From the NCBI GenBank assembly GCA_016281495.1, contig JAEEIU010000045.1:1-64000 (forward strand): a stretch of 64,000 bases of DNA, read 5' to 3'. The DNA comes from Treponema sp. Its GTDB lineage: Bacteria > Spirochaetota > Spirochaetia > Treponematales > Treponemataceae. Numbering within the stretch: position 1 is the stretch's first letter; every line of letters begins with the position of its first letter. Both the position numbers and the translations under genes were made by a program. Positions 18,820-34,261 of this stretch are shown piece by piece. The notes beneath the pieces were generated by a model. It searched no databases. It saw only the letters and a list, made by a program, of their open reading frames with translations, and was not told where the DNA came from.

Positions 18820-20376
18820 ATGAAGGTTGTTGTTATTGGTGCCCAGTGGGGAGATGAAGGAAAAGGTAAAATTGTAGACTACCTTGCAGAAAAAGCCGAT
18901 TACGTTGTTCGCTACTCAGGTGGCCCCAATGCAGGTCACACCATTGTTGTTGATGGAAAAAAGTATGCCCTGCACCAGGTTCCAAGCGGAATCCTTTATC
19001 CCGAGAAAGACGTCTATCTGGGAGCCGGTATGGTTATTGATCCGGAAGCCCTGTTTGATGAGCTTGCAATGCTTAAGAAGAATGGAATCAACTGGGAAGG
19101 CCGTGTATTCATCTCTGACCGCGCACACATCATTTTGCCAAAGTACAGGCAGATGGATAAGGAAAGGGATGCAAACCGCCCAAGACCAATAGGAACAACT
19201 GGACGTGGAATAGGAATCACTTATGGTGAAAAGGCAAACCGTGACGGACTTCGTCTTGCCGACCTTGACTGGAAGGAAAAGATGTCTGAGTTCACAGGTG
19301 AAGATAAAGCCTACCTTGACAAATACAAGAAGAAGCTTTTGGAAATGCGTGTTGACCTGACTGCAGAAATGTGGAAGCACAGAAAGGAAAACATTCTTTT
19401 TGAAGGTGCCCAGGGTGCAATGCTGGACATCGACTCTGGAACATATCCTTTTGTAAGCTCAGGTCCTTCATGTGCCGCTGGTGCCGCTGTTGGAACCGGA
19501 ATCGGACCGCATGACCTTGATACTATCGTGGGTGTTTTCAAGGCCTACGAGACACGCGTTGGAAACGGACCAATGCCTTCTGAATTCAACAATGACACAG
19601 AGAGCGAACTTTGCGAATACGTAAGGAACACTGGACACGAATTCGGTGTTACAACCGGTAGGGCAAGACGCTGCGGTTATCTTGATCTGGTAGCCCTCCG
19701 CTATGCATGCCGCGTCAATTCACTGGACGGCCTAATCCTTACTCACCTTGACATTTATGACGAGATGGATGAAATCGAAGCATGTGTTGCATACGACATC
19801 AACGGACGCATCGTAACAGATTTCCCTGCAAATGTTGACGACATGAACAATGCCAAGCCAATCCTCAAGAAGTTTGACGGATGGAAGTCATCACTCCAGA
19901 AATGCAAGTCTTATGCACGCCTTCCTGAGAATGCAAGGGCATACATCGAATTCATCGAGGACTTTACTGCAACACCGGTAACAATCGTTTCCGTTGGTAG
20001 TGACCGTGCCGAGACAATCGTACGTGCAAATCCGTGGAAAAAAGGCAGTGCCGTAGAATTGGCAGAAAAACCGCTTGCATCAAAGAAGAAGACTGCAAAA
20101 AAAGCTGGTGCCAAAAAGACCACAGCCAAAAAGACAGCCGCTAAGAAGACTGCCAAAAAAGCCACGGCAAAAAAGACCACAGCTAAAAAAGCTGCTGAGA
20201 AAAAAACAACAGCAAAAAAATCCACAGCTAAAAAGACAGTCAGCAAAAAAGCAACCGTCAAAAAGGCCATGGTAAAAAAGACAGCGGCAAAAAAGCCTGC
20301 TAAAAAAACGGCAGTCAAGAAGCCCGCTGCTAAAAAATCAGGTCCAAGAAAAACTGTTGCTAGAAAGGCTAAATAA
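18820..20376 (+). CDS. purA: adenylosuccinate synthase with Lys/Ala-rich histone H1-like tail
   Basis: Residues 1 to about 415 are a complete PurA (GTP-dependent joining of IMP and aspartate): [11 protein letters not shown] at the N-terminus, GGPNAGHT, the TTGRGIGI loop and the [18 protein letters not shown] region. The family is normally about 425-430 residues. Here about 100 extra residues (419-518) follow, about 40% Lys, built from repeats such as TAKK, AAKK and TVKK, and ending [10 protein letters not shown]. This resembles the C-terminal tail of histone H1 and bacterial H1-like proteins and would bind nucleic acid. GGAGG precedes ATG 18820. Confidence 0.95.
20074..20373 (+). repeat. repetitive coding stretch of the PurA tail
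   Basis: About 300 bases of near-repeats coding for Ala/Thr-Lys-Lys units (GCCAAAAAG, ACAGCTAAAAAG and variants). Strongly purine-rich on the plus strand and likely prone to slippage and length change. Confidence 0.8.
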
Positions 20377-21548: not shown

Positions 21549-22316
21549 TCAGCTTAACCTTACGGGAACACCGTCTTTTTCAAGTGCCTTTTTTATGTCA
21601 CCCACAGTGTACTGTCCCGAATGAACCATGCTTGCAATCAGGGCCGCATCTGCCTTTCCGTCAGTAAGGACTTTTGTAAGGTGCTCTGGTTTTCCACCAC
21701 CACCGGAAGCGATTACCGGAACGTTTACCGCCTCACTTATCATGCGGGTAAGGTTCAGCTCATAGCCGTCTTTTGTTCCGTCTGCGTCAATTGAATTGAG
21801 TACGATTTCTCCGGCACCAAGCTTTACGCCCTTTATTGCCCATTCCAATGCGTCAAGATCGGTTGCGACACGTCCGCCATTCAGGTATACGCGGTATCCG
21901 TTTGGCATTTTTTCGTCACGTGCGGCATCCATTGCAAGGACAATGCATTGGTTTCCAAAAATGCGTGCACCTTCTTTTATAAGGTCAGGATTTTTTACGG
22001 CCTGAGAGTTTAGTGATATTTTTTCCGCACCTGCAAGAATTGTGGAACGTATGTCATCGATTGTACCGATTCCTCCGCCCACACAGAAGGGAATGAAAAC
22101 CTGGCTTGCCACACGGGAAATCAAATCCAGGATTGGTCCGCGTCCACGTGCAGATGCCATGATGTCGTAGAATACAAGTTCGTCAACACCCTGCCTGTAA
22201 TATTCAGCCGCCATTTCCACCGGGTCACCGATGTCGATGTTGTTCTGGAATTTAACGCCTTTAGTTGTCCGGCCGTCCTTTACGTCAAGACAAATGATGA
22301 TTCGTTTTTTCAGCAT
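21549..22316 (-). CDS. hisF: imidazole glycerol phosphate synthase subunit HisF
   Basis: A 255-residue TIM barrel, the cyclase half of IGP synthase. It starts MLKKRIIICLDVKDGRTTKG with the catalytic Asp in CLDV; the second catalytic Asp is in LNSIDADGT (about residues 170-178), and the phosphate-binding glycines are in CVGGGIGT and ASGGGGKP. It uses ammonia from HisH, encoded immediately upstream with a 7-base overlap. The product feeds both histidine and, through AICAR, purine synthesis. Confidence 0.96.
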   Translation of the reverse strand: MLKKRIIICLDVKDGRTTKGVKFQNNIDIGDPVEMAAEYYRQGVDELVFYDIMASARGRGPILDLISRVASQVFIPFCVGGGIGTIDDIRSTILAGAEKISLNSQAVKNPDLIKEGARIFGNQCIVLAMDAARDEKMPNGYRVYLNGGRVATDLDALEWAIKGVKLGAGEIVLNSIDADGTKDGYELNLTRMISEAVNVPVIASGGGGKPEHLTKVLTDGKADAALIASMVHSGQYTVGDIKKALEKDGVPVRLS

Positions 22317-23002
22317 GAACCGTTTCCTCCTGACATGTCGTCCTTAACATAGTTCTTTAGGATCTGAAGGCCAAAGCGTCCTGATTTTTCGGGGTGGAAC
22401 TGGAATACAGTGATGTTGTCCTTTTCAACTATGGCGGGCACCATCGTTTCGTAAGTGGCATATCCCTTTATGATTTCAGGATCATCGGGGTGGATTACAT
22501 ATGAGTGTACGAAATAAAAGTCACTTCCGTCCGGAACACCCTGCATCAGCCTGCTTGAACCGTTGCAGTATGTCACGTCGTTCCAGCCCATGTGCGGGAC
22601 CTTTAGCGTGCAGTCGAGCATGGGAGTGTCGGATTCCTTTTTTTCCTTTTCGCTTGGATTTGTTTCAGCCCATATCGTGTCAAAATGACGGATAACACCG
22701 GGCAGGAGGCCAAGGCATTTTGTGTCGCCTTCTTCACTGTAGTCAAACACAATCTGGGATCCAAGGCAGATTCCCAAAAGATCTTTTCCGGAAGAAGCCC
22801 AGTCCTTTAGGAAAGAGTCAAAACCGGATTTCTTTAACTGAGTCATGGCATAGGCTGCATCTCCTACACCAGGGAAAATGAGGCGGTCTGCTTTTTCCAG
22901 GTCACGTGGGTCCTTGGAGAGTACAAACGGTACTTTAAGATAGTCAAGCGCACGTTCAACACTCTTGATGTTACCTGCATTATAATCAACTATTCCAGTC
23001 AT
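22310..23002 (-). CDS. hisH: imidazole glycerol phosphate synthase glutaminase subunit HisH
   Basis: A class I glutamine amidotransferase of 230 residues: nucleophile Cys in LLGICLGSQ (usually GICLGMQ), oxyanion PGVGD near residue 45, and the His-Glu pair in FQFHPEKSG. A small insertion (about residues 118-135, Glu/Lys-rich) is present compared with the about 200-residue norm. It supplies ammonia to HisF. First gene of hisHF; its promoter places the predicted TSS at the ATG. Confidence 0.95.
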   Translation of the reverse strand: MTGIVDYNAGNIKSVERALDYLKVPFVLSKDPRDLEKADRLIFPGVGDAAYAMTQLKKSGFDSFLKDWASSGKDLLGICLGSQIVFDYSEEGDTKCLGLLPGVIRHFDTIWAETNPSEKEKKESDTPMLDCTLKVPHMGWNDVTYCNGSSRLMQGVPDGSDFYFVHSYVIHPDDPEIIKGYATYETMVPAIVEKDNITVFQFHPEKSGRFGLQILKNYVKDDMSGGNGSC

Positions 23003-31420: not shown

Positions 31421-32722
31421 TTATTTCTCTTTGTGCCTCTTGTCAAGTTCATCATAGACGTCCTGCCAGGTCACGCCTTCCTTGTACATCAGCACGCTTG
31501 CAAAATACAAAAGGTCAGCCGCTTCCCAGACAACCTCGTCCTTTCCTTCGGCCTCTGTAAGTTCCTCGGCTTCTTCCATTACCTTTTCGCGAACACGCTT
31601 GTCGTTCAGGGTGGCCGTATAGCTTCCGGGTCTTGGGTTTGCAAAACGTTCGCTTATGGTCTGGTACAGGCGTTCCATGCTGCTCTTTTCGTCCGCTTCC
31701 GAACCAAAGCAAGTCCAGTGTCCGGTGTGGCATGTAGGTCCGTCGGGTACAACTGTTGCAAGGATTGTGTCACGGTCGCAGTCAGCTCGCATGCGCACAA
31801 GGTTCAGGTAATTGTTGCTTGTCTCTCCCTTTGTCCAGAGGGTGTTTCGTGTGCGACTGAAAAATGTGAGCTTTTTTGTCTCGAATGATTTTTCAATGGC
31901 CTCTTTGTTTGAATATCCCATCATCAGAACCTGACCGTGAGTGCTCTGTGCGATTACCGGAATCATGCCGTCAACCTTTTTCCAGTCAAGGCATCTGATG
32001 AAGCTGTCCTTTAGTCCAACTTTCCCGGTATAGAGGGCCATTCCAAGCTGAACGTCGCAGCCCAAGCGCTCAAGTTCTTCTATCTGATCAAGGGAGTTCA
32101 CTCCACCCGCCGCAACCACACGGCACTTTACGGCTTCGCGAAGGGACTTGACCATGCTCATGTCCGTGCCCTGCATGCAGCCTTCCTTTTCCACACAGGT
32201 GAACAAAAGCTCGCTGGCATATTCTTCCGCCGCCTTTGCCCCCTCCACCAGGGAAATGTTTGCGGTTTCAGTCCATCCCTTGAGTGCGATTTTACCGTTG
32301 ATGGCATCCACGGAGATTATGACCCGCTGCTTTCCGATTGCATCACAGAGTTCCTGGAGAAAAGCCGTGTTGAGGATTGGGTCGCCTTCGCTTTTCCTTT
32401 CCGCATTCCAGGCCGCCGAACCGATGATGACTTTTTCCGCCCCAAGGGAAATCAGCTGCCGGGCCTTCTTTACGTCACGGATACCACCGCCAACCCTGAC
32501 ATTGCCCTTCCGGAGCAGTGACTTTAAAAGTGCCGTATTCTTGGTGTTGCCCTTTTCGTCCGTATTGCGCATTGCCGCATCCAGATCGATTATCGCAACC
32601 TCGCCGTATGTATCAAATTCAGAAATAAGGGAGTCCGCATCATCCCGCTGCAATACAAGATCCCTGCCGTTTTTAAGCTGAACGACATGTCCGTCTTTCA
32701 AATCAATAGAAGAAATTACCAT
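31421..32722 (-). CDS. HisA-HisI-HisE three-domain fusion, histidine biosynthesis
   Basis: From ATG 32722 the protein is 433 residues. About 1-235 is a HisA-type barrel (SSIDLKDGHVVQL, VGGGIRDVKKA, AAGGVNSLDQIEEL), the ProFAR isomerase step. About 245-340 is HisI, PR-AMP cyclohydrolase (LMMGYSNKEAIEKS, RMRADCDRDTI, GPTCHTGHWTCF with metal Cys/His). About 345-433 is HisE, PR-ATP pyrophosphatase (REKVMEEAEELTEAE, EAADLLYF). Three consecutive steps are thus in one chain; HisIE fusion is common, adding HisA is not. An open frame extends 99 bases upstream, but the promoter shows that ATG 32722 is the start. Confidence 0.92.
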   Translation of the reverse strand: MVISSIDLKDGHVVQLKNGRDLVLQRDDADSLISEFDTYGEVAIIDLDAAMRNTDEKGNTKNTALLKSLLRKGNVRVGGGIRDVKKARQLISLGAEKVIIGSAAWNAERKSEGDPILNTAFLQELCDAIGKQRVIISVDAINGKIALKGWTETANISLVEGAKAAEEYASELLFTCVEKEGCMQGTDMSMVKSLREAVKCRVVAAGGVNSLDQIEELERLGCDVQLGMALYTGKVGLKDSFIRCLDWKKVDGMIPVIAQSTHGQVLMMGYSNKEAIEKSFETKKLTFFSRTRNTLWTKGETSNNYLNLVRMRADCDRDTILATVVPDGPTCHTGHWTCFGSEADEKSSMERLYQTISERFANPRPGSYTATLNDKRVREKVMEEAEELTEAEGKDEVVWEAADLLYFASVLMYKEGVTWQDVYDELDKRHKEK

Positions 32723-32730
32723 AATAGGAG

Positions 32731-32759
32731 AGTATAGCAGAATAATTGGGTATTTACAA
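32731..32759 (-). promoter_or_regulatory. promoter giving a leaderless hisA-IE mRNA
   Basis: Minus strand TTGTAA (32754-32759), 17-base spacer, extended -10 TGC-TATACT (TATACT 32731-32736), eight bases to ATG 32722. Predicted leader is 0-2 bases. Confidence 0.65.
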
Positions 32760-32828
32760 TCAGTAATGAATAAGAATATGGAAGGCAAGTGCAATTCCAA
32801 ATAAAACTTTGTAATTAACAATCAATAG

Positions 32829-32965: not shown

Positions 32966-34261
32966 ATGATTTCAGCATTAGCACAAGAATTAAACGACGT
33001 CCTTGCGGGGACTGCTGCCGGTGACCTGCTTTCTGATATGGGAAAAAGGCTCTATTTCCCTAAAGGCATTATTGCCCAGAGTGGAGAAGCTAAAAAGCTT
33101 GGTAAGACTGCCAACGCCACAATCGGCATGACCGTCATCAACGGCTCTCCCGTAACCCTGCAGTCAATTCAGGATCAGGTTCCAAGTTTCAGTTCTAGGG
33201 AGCTTGTAGCATATGCACCCACTGCCGGTAATCCTGATTTGCGCGCTTTGTGGAAAAATGCAATCATAAAGAAAAACCCGCGTCTTGAAAACATTCCAAT
33301 ATCCATGCCGGTTTTAGTTCCAGGCCTTACAGCAGGCATTTCATATCTTGCAGACCTTTTCCTGGATGAGTCAAAGGGGCTTGTTGCATCCGATCCATCA
33401 TGGGACAATTATGTTTTAATCGCATCTGCCAGAAGGAACGCTTCCTTTGTTCAGTTCCCCATGTTCAAGGACGGTAAGTTCAACATCGATGCACTTGAGG
33501 AAAAAATGAGCGAGGAGGCCAAATCCGGTTCTGTCCGCGTGCTCCTGAATTTCCCGCAGAATCCTTCAGGTTACAGTCCAACTACAGATGAGGTAAAGCG
33601 CCTTGTTGAATTCATCAAGGGTCTTGCCGACAAGGGTGTAAAGGTGATGGTGTGGTGCGATGATGCATATTTCGGCCTTGCCTATGAAAAAGAGATTGAG
33701 CGTCAGTCTCTGTTTGCATATCTTGCCGACCTGAGTCCCAACGTTCTTGCCGCAAAAATCGACGGTCCTACAAAAGAAGACTTTGCATGGGGATTCCGCT
33801 GCGGATTCATCACATTTGCAAGCAAGGGAATGACAGAGGAACAGTATGATGCTCTTGTGAAAAAGCTGATGGGAACAATCCGTTCTTCCGTTTCATGTTC
33901 TTCAACTCCACCGCAGAACATTTTGCTCAAGGCATTCCAGGATCCCAAGATTGAGGAACAAAAGGCCGCATATTTTAAGGTTCTTGAAAAACGCTATCAA
34001 ATCGTAAAGAATTTTGTCAATACACATAAAAGTGATGCCCTGTACGCTTTGCCGTTCAACTCGGGATACTTCATGTCATTCCATTTGAATTCAGTTGATG
34101 CCGAAGCATTGCGTAAAAAGCTTCTTGAAGAAAAGGGAATCGGAACCATTGCAATTGACAGCCAAACTTTGCGTATTGCATTCTCAAGCTTGGACGATGA
34201 CAAGATAGAGATGGTTTATTCTGCAATTTATGAGAGTGCTGATGAACTTGCGCGTGCTTAA
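32966..34261 (+). CDS. PLP-dependent aminotransferase, class I/II fold
   Basis: A 431-residue fold-type I enzyme. Visible: TAGNPDLRALW near the substrate site, PGLTAG before the cofactor phosphate loop, NFPQNPSGY (Asn facing the PLP ring), CDDAYFGL (Asp pairing with PLP nitrogen), a likely Schiff-base Lys in DGPTKEDFAWGFRCGF with the conserved Arg. The Lys context differs from the usual S-x-S-K, so substrate prediction is unsafe; amino acid transamination is likely. The downstream solute-binding lipoprotein overlaps it by 20 bases. Confidence 0.87.
   Translation: MISALAQELNDVLAGTAAGDLLSDMGKRLYFPKGIIAQSGEAKKLGKTANATIGMTVINGSPVTLQSIQDQVPSFSSRELVAYAPTAGNPDLRALWKNAIIKKNPRLENIPISMPVLVPGLTAGISYLADLFLDESKGLVASDPSWDNYVLIASARRNASFVQFPMFKDGKFNIDALEEKMSEEAKSGSVRVLLNFPQNPSGYSPTTDEVKRLVEFIKGLADKGVKVMVWCDDAYFGLAYEKEIERQSLFAYLADLSPNVLAAKIDGPTKEDFAWGFRCGFITFASKGMTEEQYDALVKKLMGTIRSSVSCSSTPPQNILLKAFQDPKIEEQKAAYFKVLEKRYQIVKNFVNTHKSDALYALPFNSGYFMSFHLNSVDAEALRKKLLEEKGIGTIAIDSQTLRIAFSSLDDDKIEMVYSAIYESADELARA

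Follow-up and report, generated by a model that had tools for sequence, protein, structure and literature searches.

A HisA-HisI-HisE fusion protein of Treponema with a glutamate at the place of a catalytic aspartate of HisA

Can a single polypeptide supply three consecutive steps of histidine biosynthesis in Treponema, and does the barrel at its front still act as an isomerase? These questions were raised by a gene in a 64,000-nucleotide stretch of a Treponema sp. genome (contig JAEEIU010000045.1, positions 1 to 64,000; here called the window), for which an original prediction, made from the sequence alone, had proposed a HisA-HisI-HisE fusion. The three-part architecture is already in print, as a 2021 paper contains one sentence on Spirochaetia sequences with all three activities and also names some Gammaproteobacteria. 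The protein described here corresponds to those sequences in the three activities assigned to one chain and in bacterial class; the section concerned of the 2021 paper does not list residues, describe the gene context or the spread, or test for a sole copy. The listing in Fani 2007 (PMC1963479) comprises five his fusions, none of them HisA-HisIE, and covers four Spirochaetes, with no HisIE among these. Yeast HIS4 (HisI-HisE-HisD), as described in that source, is also a multifunctional his fusion around HisIE, but its partner is HisD at the back, whereas the partner in the treponeme fusion is HisA at the front. A literature search, with most subscription papers outside its reach, found no paper on the sole-copy status or gene-order history of the fusion and no earlier report of the glutamate at its isomerase site.

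Domain organization of the fusion protein

The gene was found to be one open frame with an ATG start at 32722 (Table 1), giving a protein with the N terminus MVISSIDLKDG; the open reading frame listing takes the frame further upstream, to a TTG at 32821. Scores above the gathering cut-offs were obtained with three Pfam families, namely, His_biosynth (PF00977; 152.1 bits versus 23.6), PRA-CH (PF01502; 104.5 bits versus 27) and PRA-PH (PF01503; 71.8 bits versus 21.3), and the predicted presence of HisA, HisI and HisE parts in one chain was thereby borne out. An AlphaFold2 model built with 27 sequences of the protein's own lineage (mean pLDDT, 83.2; pTM, 0.69) placed the barrel up to residue 243, the HisI fold from residue ~252 and the HisE helices from residue 349, with ~10 residues of linker between the barrel and the HisI part. 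The poorest stretch of the model was residues 331 to 340. The best PDB matches in a Foldseek search were HisIE (6j22) for the back half and HisA/PriA (4x9s and 5a5w) or HisF structures for the front. Compared to the bifunctional HisIE of E. coli (PDB 6j2l), the fusion has the same HisI-then-HisE order and retains the motifs, with a HisA-like barrel added in front.

Table 1. Positions of the fusion gene, its predicted parts and associated features in the window
Feature	Position	Strand	Remarks
hisA-hisI-hisE fusion gene	31421..32722	-	433 aa plus stop
HisA-like (beta/alpha)8 barrel, residues 1-243	31994..32722	-	PF00977 at 1-235; model helices/strands up to 243
HisI (phosphoribosyl-AMP cyclohydrolase) part, residues 244-345	31688..31993	-	PF01502 at 267-339; model; match to 6j2l (Shigella-type HisIE)
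HisE (phosphoribosyl-ATP pyrophosphohydrolase) part, residues 346-433	31424..31687	-	PF01503 at 350-430; TIGR03188, 71.8 bits versus cut-off of 42.7
Glu180 codon, aligned with catalytic Asp176 of Salmonella/E. coli HisA	32183..32185	-	Alignments
hisF	21549..22316	-	TIGR00735, 338 bits versus cut-off of 294.55; would use PRFAR made by the fusion
hisH, glutaminase partner of HisF	22310..23002	-	TIGR01855, 201 bits versus cut-off of 105.4
Predicted promoter TTGTAA-17-TATACT	32731..32759	-	Ends 8 bases before ATG; position conserved in many relatives

The fusion as the only copy in the genome

The genome from which the window was taken (3.2 Mb in 61 contigs; 98.8% complete) was searched with the Pfam profiles for separate hisA, hisI and hisE genes, and none was detected above the cut-offs. 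PF00977 identified HisF and the fusion only, and PF01502 and PF01503 identified the fusion only. The claim that no separate hisA is present in the window therefore held and could be extended to the genome at these cut-offs, with no stand-alone rival to the fused copy. HisG, HisD and HisB were present on other contigs. A HisHF pair had been predicted 9 kb from the fusion; hisH and hisF were indeed located on the same strand at a distance of ~8.4 kb, but because they occupy separate frames overlapping by 7 bases, they constitute a gene pair and not a HisHF fusion. As the rest of the pathway is present and the fusion is the sole copy, the fusion would therefore be needed for steps 2 to 4.

The aminotransferase encoded next to the fusion (32966-34261, +) was considered as a candidate HisC and was rejected on the basis of its score with TIGR01141 (21.6 bits versus 276.55). 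A TrpF domain scored above the Pfam cut-off in this genome within a TrpC-TrpF-TrpB protein, the three parts of which form a single 927-aa chain (L116:211-2991, -).

Assignment of the barrel and annotation of HisA

Among NCBIfam models, the HisA models ranked highest for the front of the fusion. The barrel scored 147.8 bits with the HisA equivalog TIGR00007, which is below the curated cut-off of 228.95, 62.3 bits with the HisF equivalog TIGR00735 (cut-off of 294.55) and 48 bits with the hisA-trpF model (cut-off of 306). A score of 208.2 bits was obtained for the fusion with the HisIE equivalog NF002747 (cut-off of 187), and this HisIE model was matched by all 27 alignment members that were scanned. 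In a TIGR00007 profile search of 247 genomes, the curated cut-off was exceeded in 116. Best E values of 2.9e-47 to 6.4e-30 were obtained for the 30 listed members of the order with a match, all of them weaker than the least significant of the listed matches above the cut-off (6.7e-68). Because the barrel is below the curated HisA cut-off while the HisIE model is matched, rule-based naming would give HisIE only and leave a false HisA gap. Many rumen and gut treponemes may hence be listed without HisA and be mistaken in models for histidine auxotrophs. The barrel is a member of His_biosynth (PF00977) and would work like HisA; since it has neither the curated score nor the catalytic Asp described below, it was not assigned to the HisA equivalog.

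Conservation of catalytic residues and selection

Fused proteins were compared in an alignment of 126 rows, which represented 110 distinct proteins, as 16 came from both collections; gaps were due to rows truncated at contig ends (L101, L114 and L134) and to L135, a frame without HisE (from G138). Asp7, Asp139, Trp150 and Thr175 were retained in every distinct fused protein covering these positions, and the HisI motifs DCDRD and CH...C and the HisE motif EE..E...D were likewise retained in all distinct proteins covering them. Asp7 and Asp139 are the counterparts of Asp7 and Asp129 of E. coli/Salmonella HisA and of Asp8 and Asp127 of Thermotoga HisA; DCDxD and CH...C are metal and active-site motifs of HisI, and EE..E...D is the motif of HisE. 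Trp150 of the fusion aligns with Trp145 of HisA. The equivalent of the phosphate gripper Arg83, Arg82, was found in 119 of the 126 rows, with Ala, Lys or Asn in 6 and a gap in 1.

A distinct difference was detected at the position of catalytic Asp176 of Salmonella HisA. All 110 distinct fused proteins had a glutamate (Glu180), as did 45 of 45 rows in a second alignment that reached families f2 to f4 and overlapped with the first in its row set, whereas Asp was present at this position in all 37 stand-alone HisA proteins (E. coli, Ilyobacter and 35 Spirochaetota loci). The alignment check of the HisA catalytic aspartates was thus favourable in part, with Asp7 and Asp139 kept throughout but Glu in place of Asp176. 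Overall, the barrel shares its fold and the equivalents of Asp7, Asp129, Trp145 and Thr with the HisA ProFAR isomerases of Salmonella (5a5w) and Thermotoga (1qo2) but differs from them in having Glu for Asp176 and Ala for the Ser preceding Gly-Gly (E. coli S202), in its sub-cut-off score and in its fused state. The catalytic aspartate has been described as Asp176 in Salmonella HisA and Asp175 in PriA (PMC9088769). Salmonella HisA variants D176A and D176V had no HisA function in a published table from which D176E is absent (PMC7591586), and changes of D169E and D176E occur in computed HisA and HisF designs (PMC2667513). We infer that the Glu180 site is altered rather than dead, because Glu retains the acid group though its side chain is longer.

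Purifying selection was detected on all three parts in a comparison of nine relatives (pN, 0.04 to 0.21; pS, 0.52 to 0.92), in which synonymous sites were near saturation and many pN/pS ratios cannot be given.

Proposed function and alternative explanations

We consider it highly probable (approximately 0.86) that the fusion is a trifunctional enzyme that converts PR-ATP to PRFAR and alone provides steps 2, 3 and 4 in this genome. This conversion by a single chain, as originally predicted, is supported by sequence and pathway logic, from which we infer the isomerase step. The C-terminal HisE part would convert PR-ATP to PR-AMP, the middle HisI part would open PR-AMP to yield ProFAR, and the N-terminal barrel would isomerise ProFAR to PRFAR, which would be passed to the separate HisH-HisF pair; the order of the parts in the chain is the reverse of the reaction order. 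The activity of each of the three parts is a prediction from conserved sequence. As further suggestions, the barrel may work with Glu180 replacing the usual catalytic Asp, and the closeness of the sites may favour the handing on of PR-AMP and ProFAR. For Acinetobacter HisIE, the reported kinetics point to proximity channelling of PR-AMP with no tunnel involved, and the authors emphasize that a fusion does not by itself guarantee channelling (PMC10242683); by analogy, proximity channelling of PR-AMP may occur in the fusion. A bolder proposal is that the fused barrels form their own branch of ProFAR isomerases with an altered mechanism, one in which Glu acts as the acid and changed together with the fusion, ProFAR is taken up directly from the attached HisI part and three-site proximity channelling from PR-ATP to PRFAR operates across the order. 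We regard this as unlikely in its entirety. A natural, order-wide three-site histidine enzyme would allow site proximity and the catalytic Asp-to-Glu change to be tested together.

The presence of Glu throughout at the Asp176 position and the score under the HisA cut-off could also be explained by a barrel that has no ProFAR isomerase activity and acts as a scaffold, with an unrecognised enzyme performing step 4. The retention of Asp7, Asp139, Trp150 and Thr175, the purifying selection on the barrel, the lack of another candidate barrel over the cut-off in the genome and the retention of the remaining pathway argue against this explanation, which we judged to be very unlikely. The barrel could alternatively be bifunctional, like actinobacterial PriA, and supply TrpF activity as well, which would fit with a report of bifunctional ancestral HisA enzymes (PMC5445326). 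However, a TrpF domain is present in the TrpC-TrpF-TrpB protein, and a PriA-like role is therefore not called for; together with the low score in the hisA-trpF model, this left little probability for such a dual role.

Cleavage of the chain after synthesis into HisA and HisIE, such that fusion would matter for expression only, was considered equally improbable, as the linker is short and the position of the join is constant in aligned relatives. Least probable was the explanation that the front barrel is related to HisF, or has a new activity, and is not an isomerase. Its location between HisA and HisF in an unrooted tree is in line with this, but the HisA profile outscored the HisF profile (148 versus 62 bits), the Gly-Trp motif of HisA, which HisF lacks, is retained, and a true HisF adjoins HisH in the window.

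Distribution of the fusion in the Spirochaetota

A scan was performed on 392 Spirochaetota genomes, of which 110 (counted from the table) belonged to the order of the window; 92 of these had a match of any kind and 18 had none. The HisA-HisI(-HisE) fusion was present in one frame in 89 of the 92 matching genomes (48 of the 49 in the genus, 15 of the 17 in the remainder of the family and all 26 in three further families); on the question of phylogenetic spread raised by the prediction, the fusion thus proved to be the usual state in this order. Only a single weak match was obtained in each of the remaining three (G384, G347 and G363). The fusion was cut by a contig end in G361, the frame of G138 stopped after HisI, and those of G070 and G372 carried inserts yet stayed open. 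Nine of the genomes with the fusion consisted of a single contig, and eight of them showed the fusion and HisF only (in G309, four of six candidates were scored); the ninth, G194, had a further HisH-HisF pair besides. Some genomes of a second scan contained weak extra matches to PF00977, part of which were inspected.

The fusion was also detected at 52 to 98% identity in 80 kept loci of a contig collection, which was scanned with patterns taken from the query; two of these loci (L101 and L114) were partial due to contig ends. All 80 were titled Treponema or Spirochaet- and included T. saccharophilum, T. berlinense and T. zioleckii. Because it recurs in these loci and in 89 genomes of the order, the fusion is neither a chance join nor an assembly join. 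Matches were present in 651 plasmid records, and the 15 listed were annotated with separate hisA, hisF and hisIE genes or were unannotated, each match being in two pieces. Outside the order, no full-length stop-free match was found among the matches listed, which extended down to an E value of ~1e-32 and which a distant fusion could escape; two fusions of another type (G130 and G245) were found later.

Thirteen genomes of the window's own family, mostly of genera g2 and g3 and including G019, G031 and G056, had no match at all. The fusion seems to have been lost in these genomes, probably along with the whole of histidine synthesis. In f60, a further family of the order represented by one genome of the second scan only (G392), hisA was apart and there was no fusion; the gene directly after hisA encoded HisE together with a HisI-like stretch for which PRA-CH gave no match (L143), and a HisI match was located on another contig. 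A second hisH-hisF pair, far from the pair adjacent to the fusion, was observed in L141 (G194) and L142 (G342).

Origin of the fusion and gene order

In a quick unrooted tree of 77 barrels, which carries a long-branch warning, the 38 fused barrels were set off by one branch (SH-aLRT, 95) from both stand-alone HisA and HisF, and a single origin of the fusion was not rejected. The gene order in families f2, f3 and f4 was mostly hisH-hisF-[hisA-hisI-hisE], often with a short overlap of a few bases between hisF and the fusion. The fusion of the window is separate from hisH-hisF. Elsewhere in the class, hisA was directly upstream of a gene with a HisI-like stretch and a HisE end. A single fusion event at the base of the order, joining adjacent hisA and hisIE genes of a hisH-hisF-hisA-hisIE run, is the probable origin of the three-part gene.

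The fusions of the other type were found in two other families of the class, in G130 (L221, -, 466 aa) and G245 (L220, -, 450 aa), in one frame with no stop at the join. Loci from eight genomes (L226 to L233) matched the whole G130 query with a single in-frame stop at the join and represent the unfused neighbour state. The G130 and G245 proteins likewise have HisA first and HisE last, but unlike the fusion of the order they retain the usual catalytic Asp and have no PRA-CH match in Pfam, and HisI must therefore come from elsewhere. We read their middle stretch as a HisI remnant. Joining of HisA to a HisE-bearing neighbour has probably occurred more than once, with the HisI motifs left whole and the catalytic Asp changed in the order and, probably, with a HisI remnant in the other families.

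Several further gene arrangements were examined. A whole-query match with one stop in L121 to L124 was considered as an unfused hisA-hisIE precursor and was rejected, as these loci have hisF followed by hisIE, with hisA before hisF. Apparent HisF-HisIE fusions in G260, G382, G308 and G385 (listed frames of 469 to 504 aa) were rejected when the fetched DNA showed HisIE frames of 206 to 225 aa. A five-part HisH-HisF-HisA-HisI-HisE frame in G414 (L158:4708-9249, 1,513 aa), which ran on past these parts, was rejected as an assembly artefact because single N bases were present at both gene joins and the genes of relatives overlap in different frames. HisH and HisF were in one open, N-free frame, as a HIS7-like HisHF beside HisAIE, in 15 genomes belonging to families f2 and f4 (L125, L126, L131, L132, L149, L150, L153, L154, L165, L166 and L168 to L172); these loci were partly picked for long HisF frames, and the number does not give a rate.

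Expression of the fusion gene

No Shine-Dalgarno sequence was seen upstream of the fusion ATG in the window. An Rfam search for an RNA leader of the fusion detected two tRNAs only, neither of them near the fusion. Among 67 loci of the contig collection with a full upstream region (between L036 and L104), a -10-like hexamer was present 5 to 10 bases before the ATG in 47, and a Shine-Dalgarno-like word was present in 2. The corresponding numbers for 270 control frames from the same loci were 34 and 114, a contrast that is approximate, as the control starts were first ATGs and partly wrong. Together with the predicted promoter, these results suggested that the fusion message is probably leaderless.

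Elsewhere in the window, the adenylosuccinate synthetase (18820-20376, +) was observed to carry a Lys/Ala-rich tail of ~110 residues, which scored 43.5 bits with the histone H1-like HC2 family (cut-off of 40).
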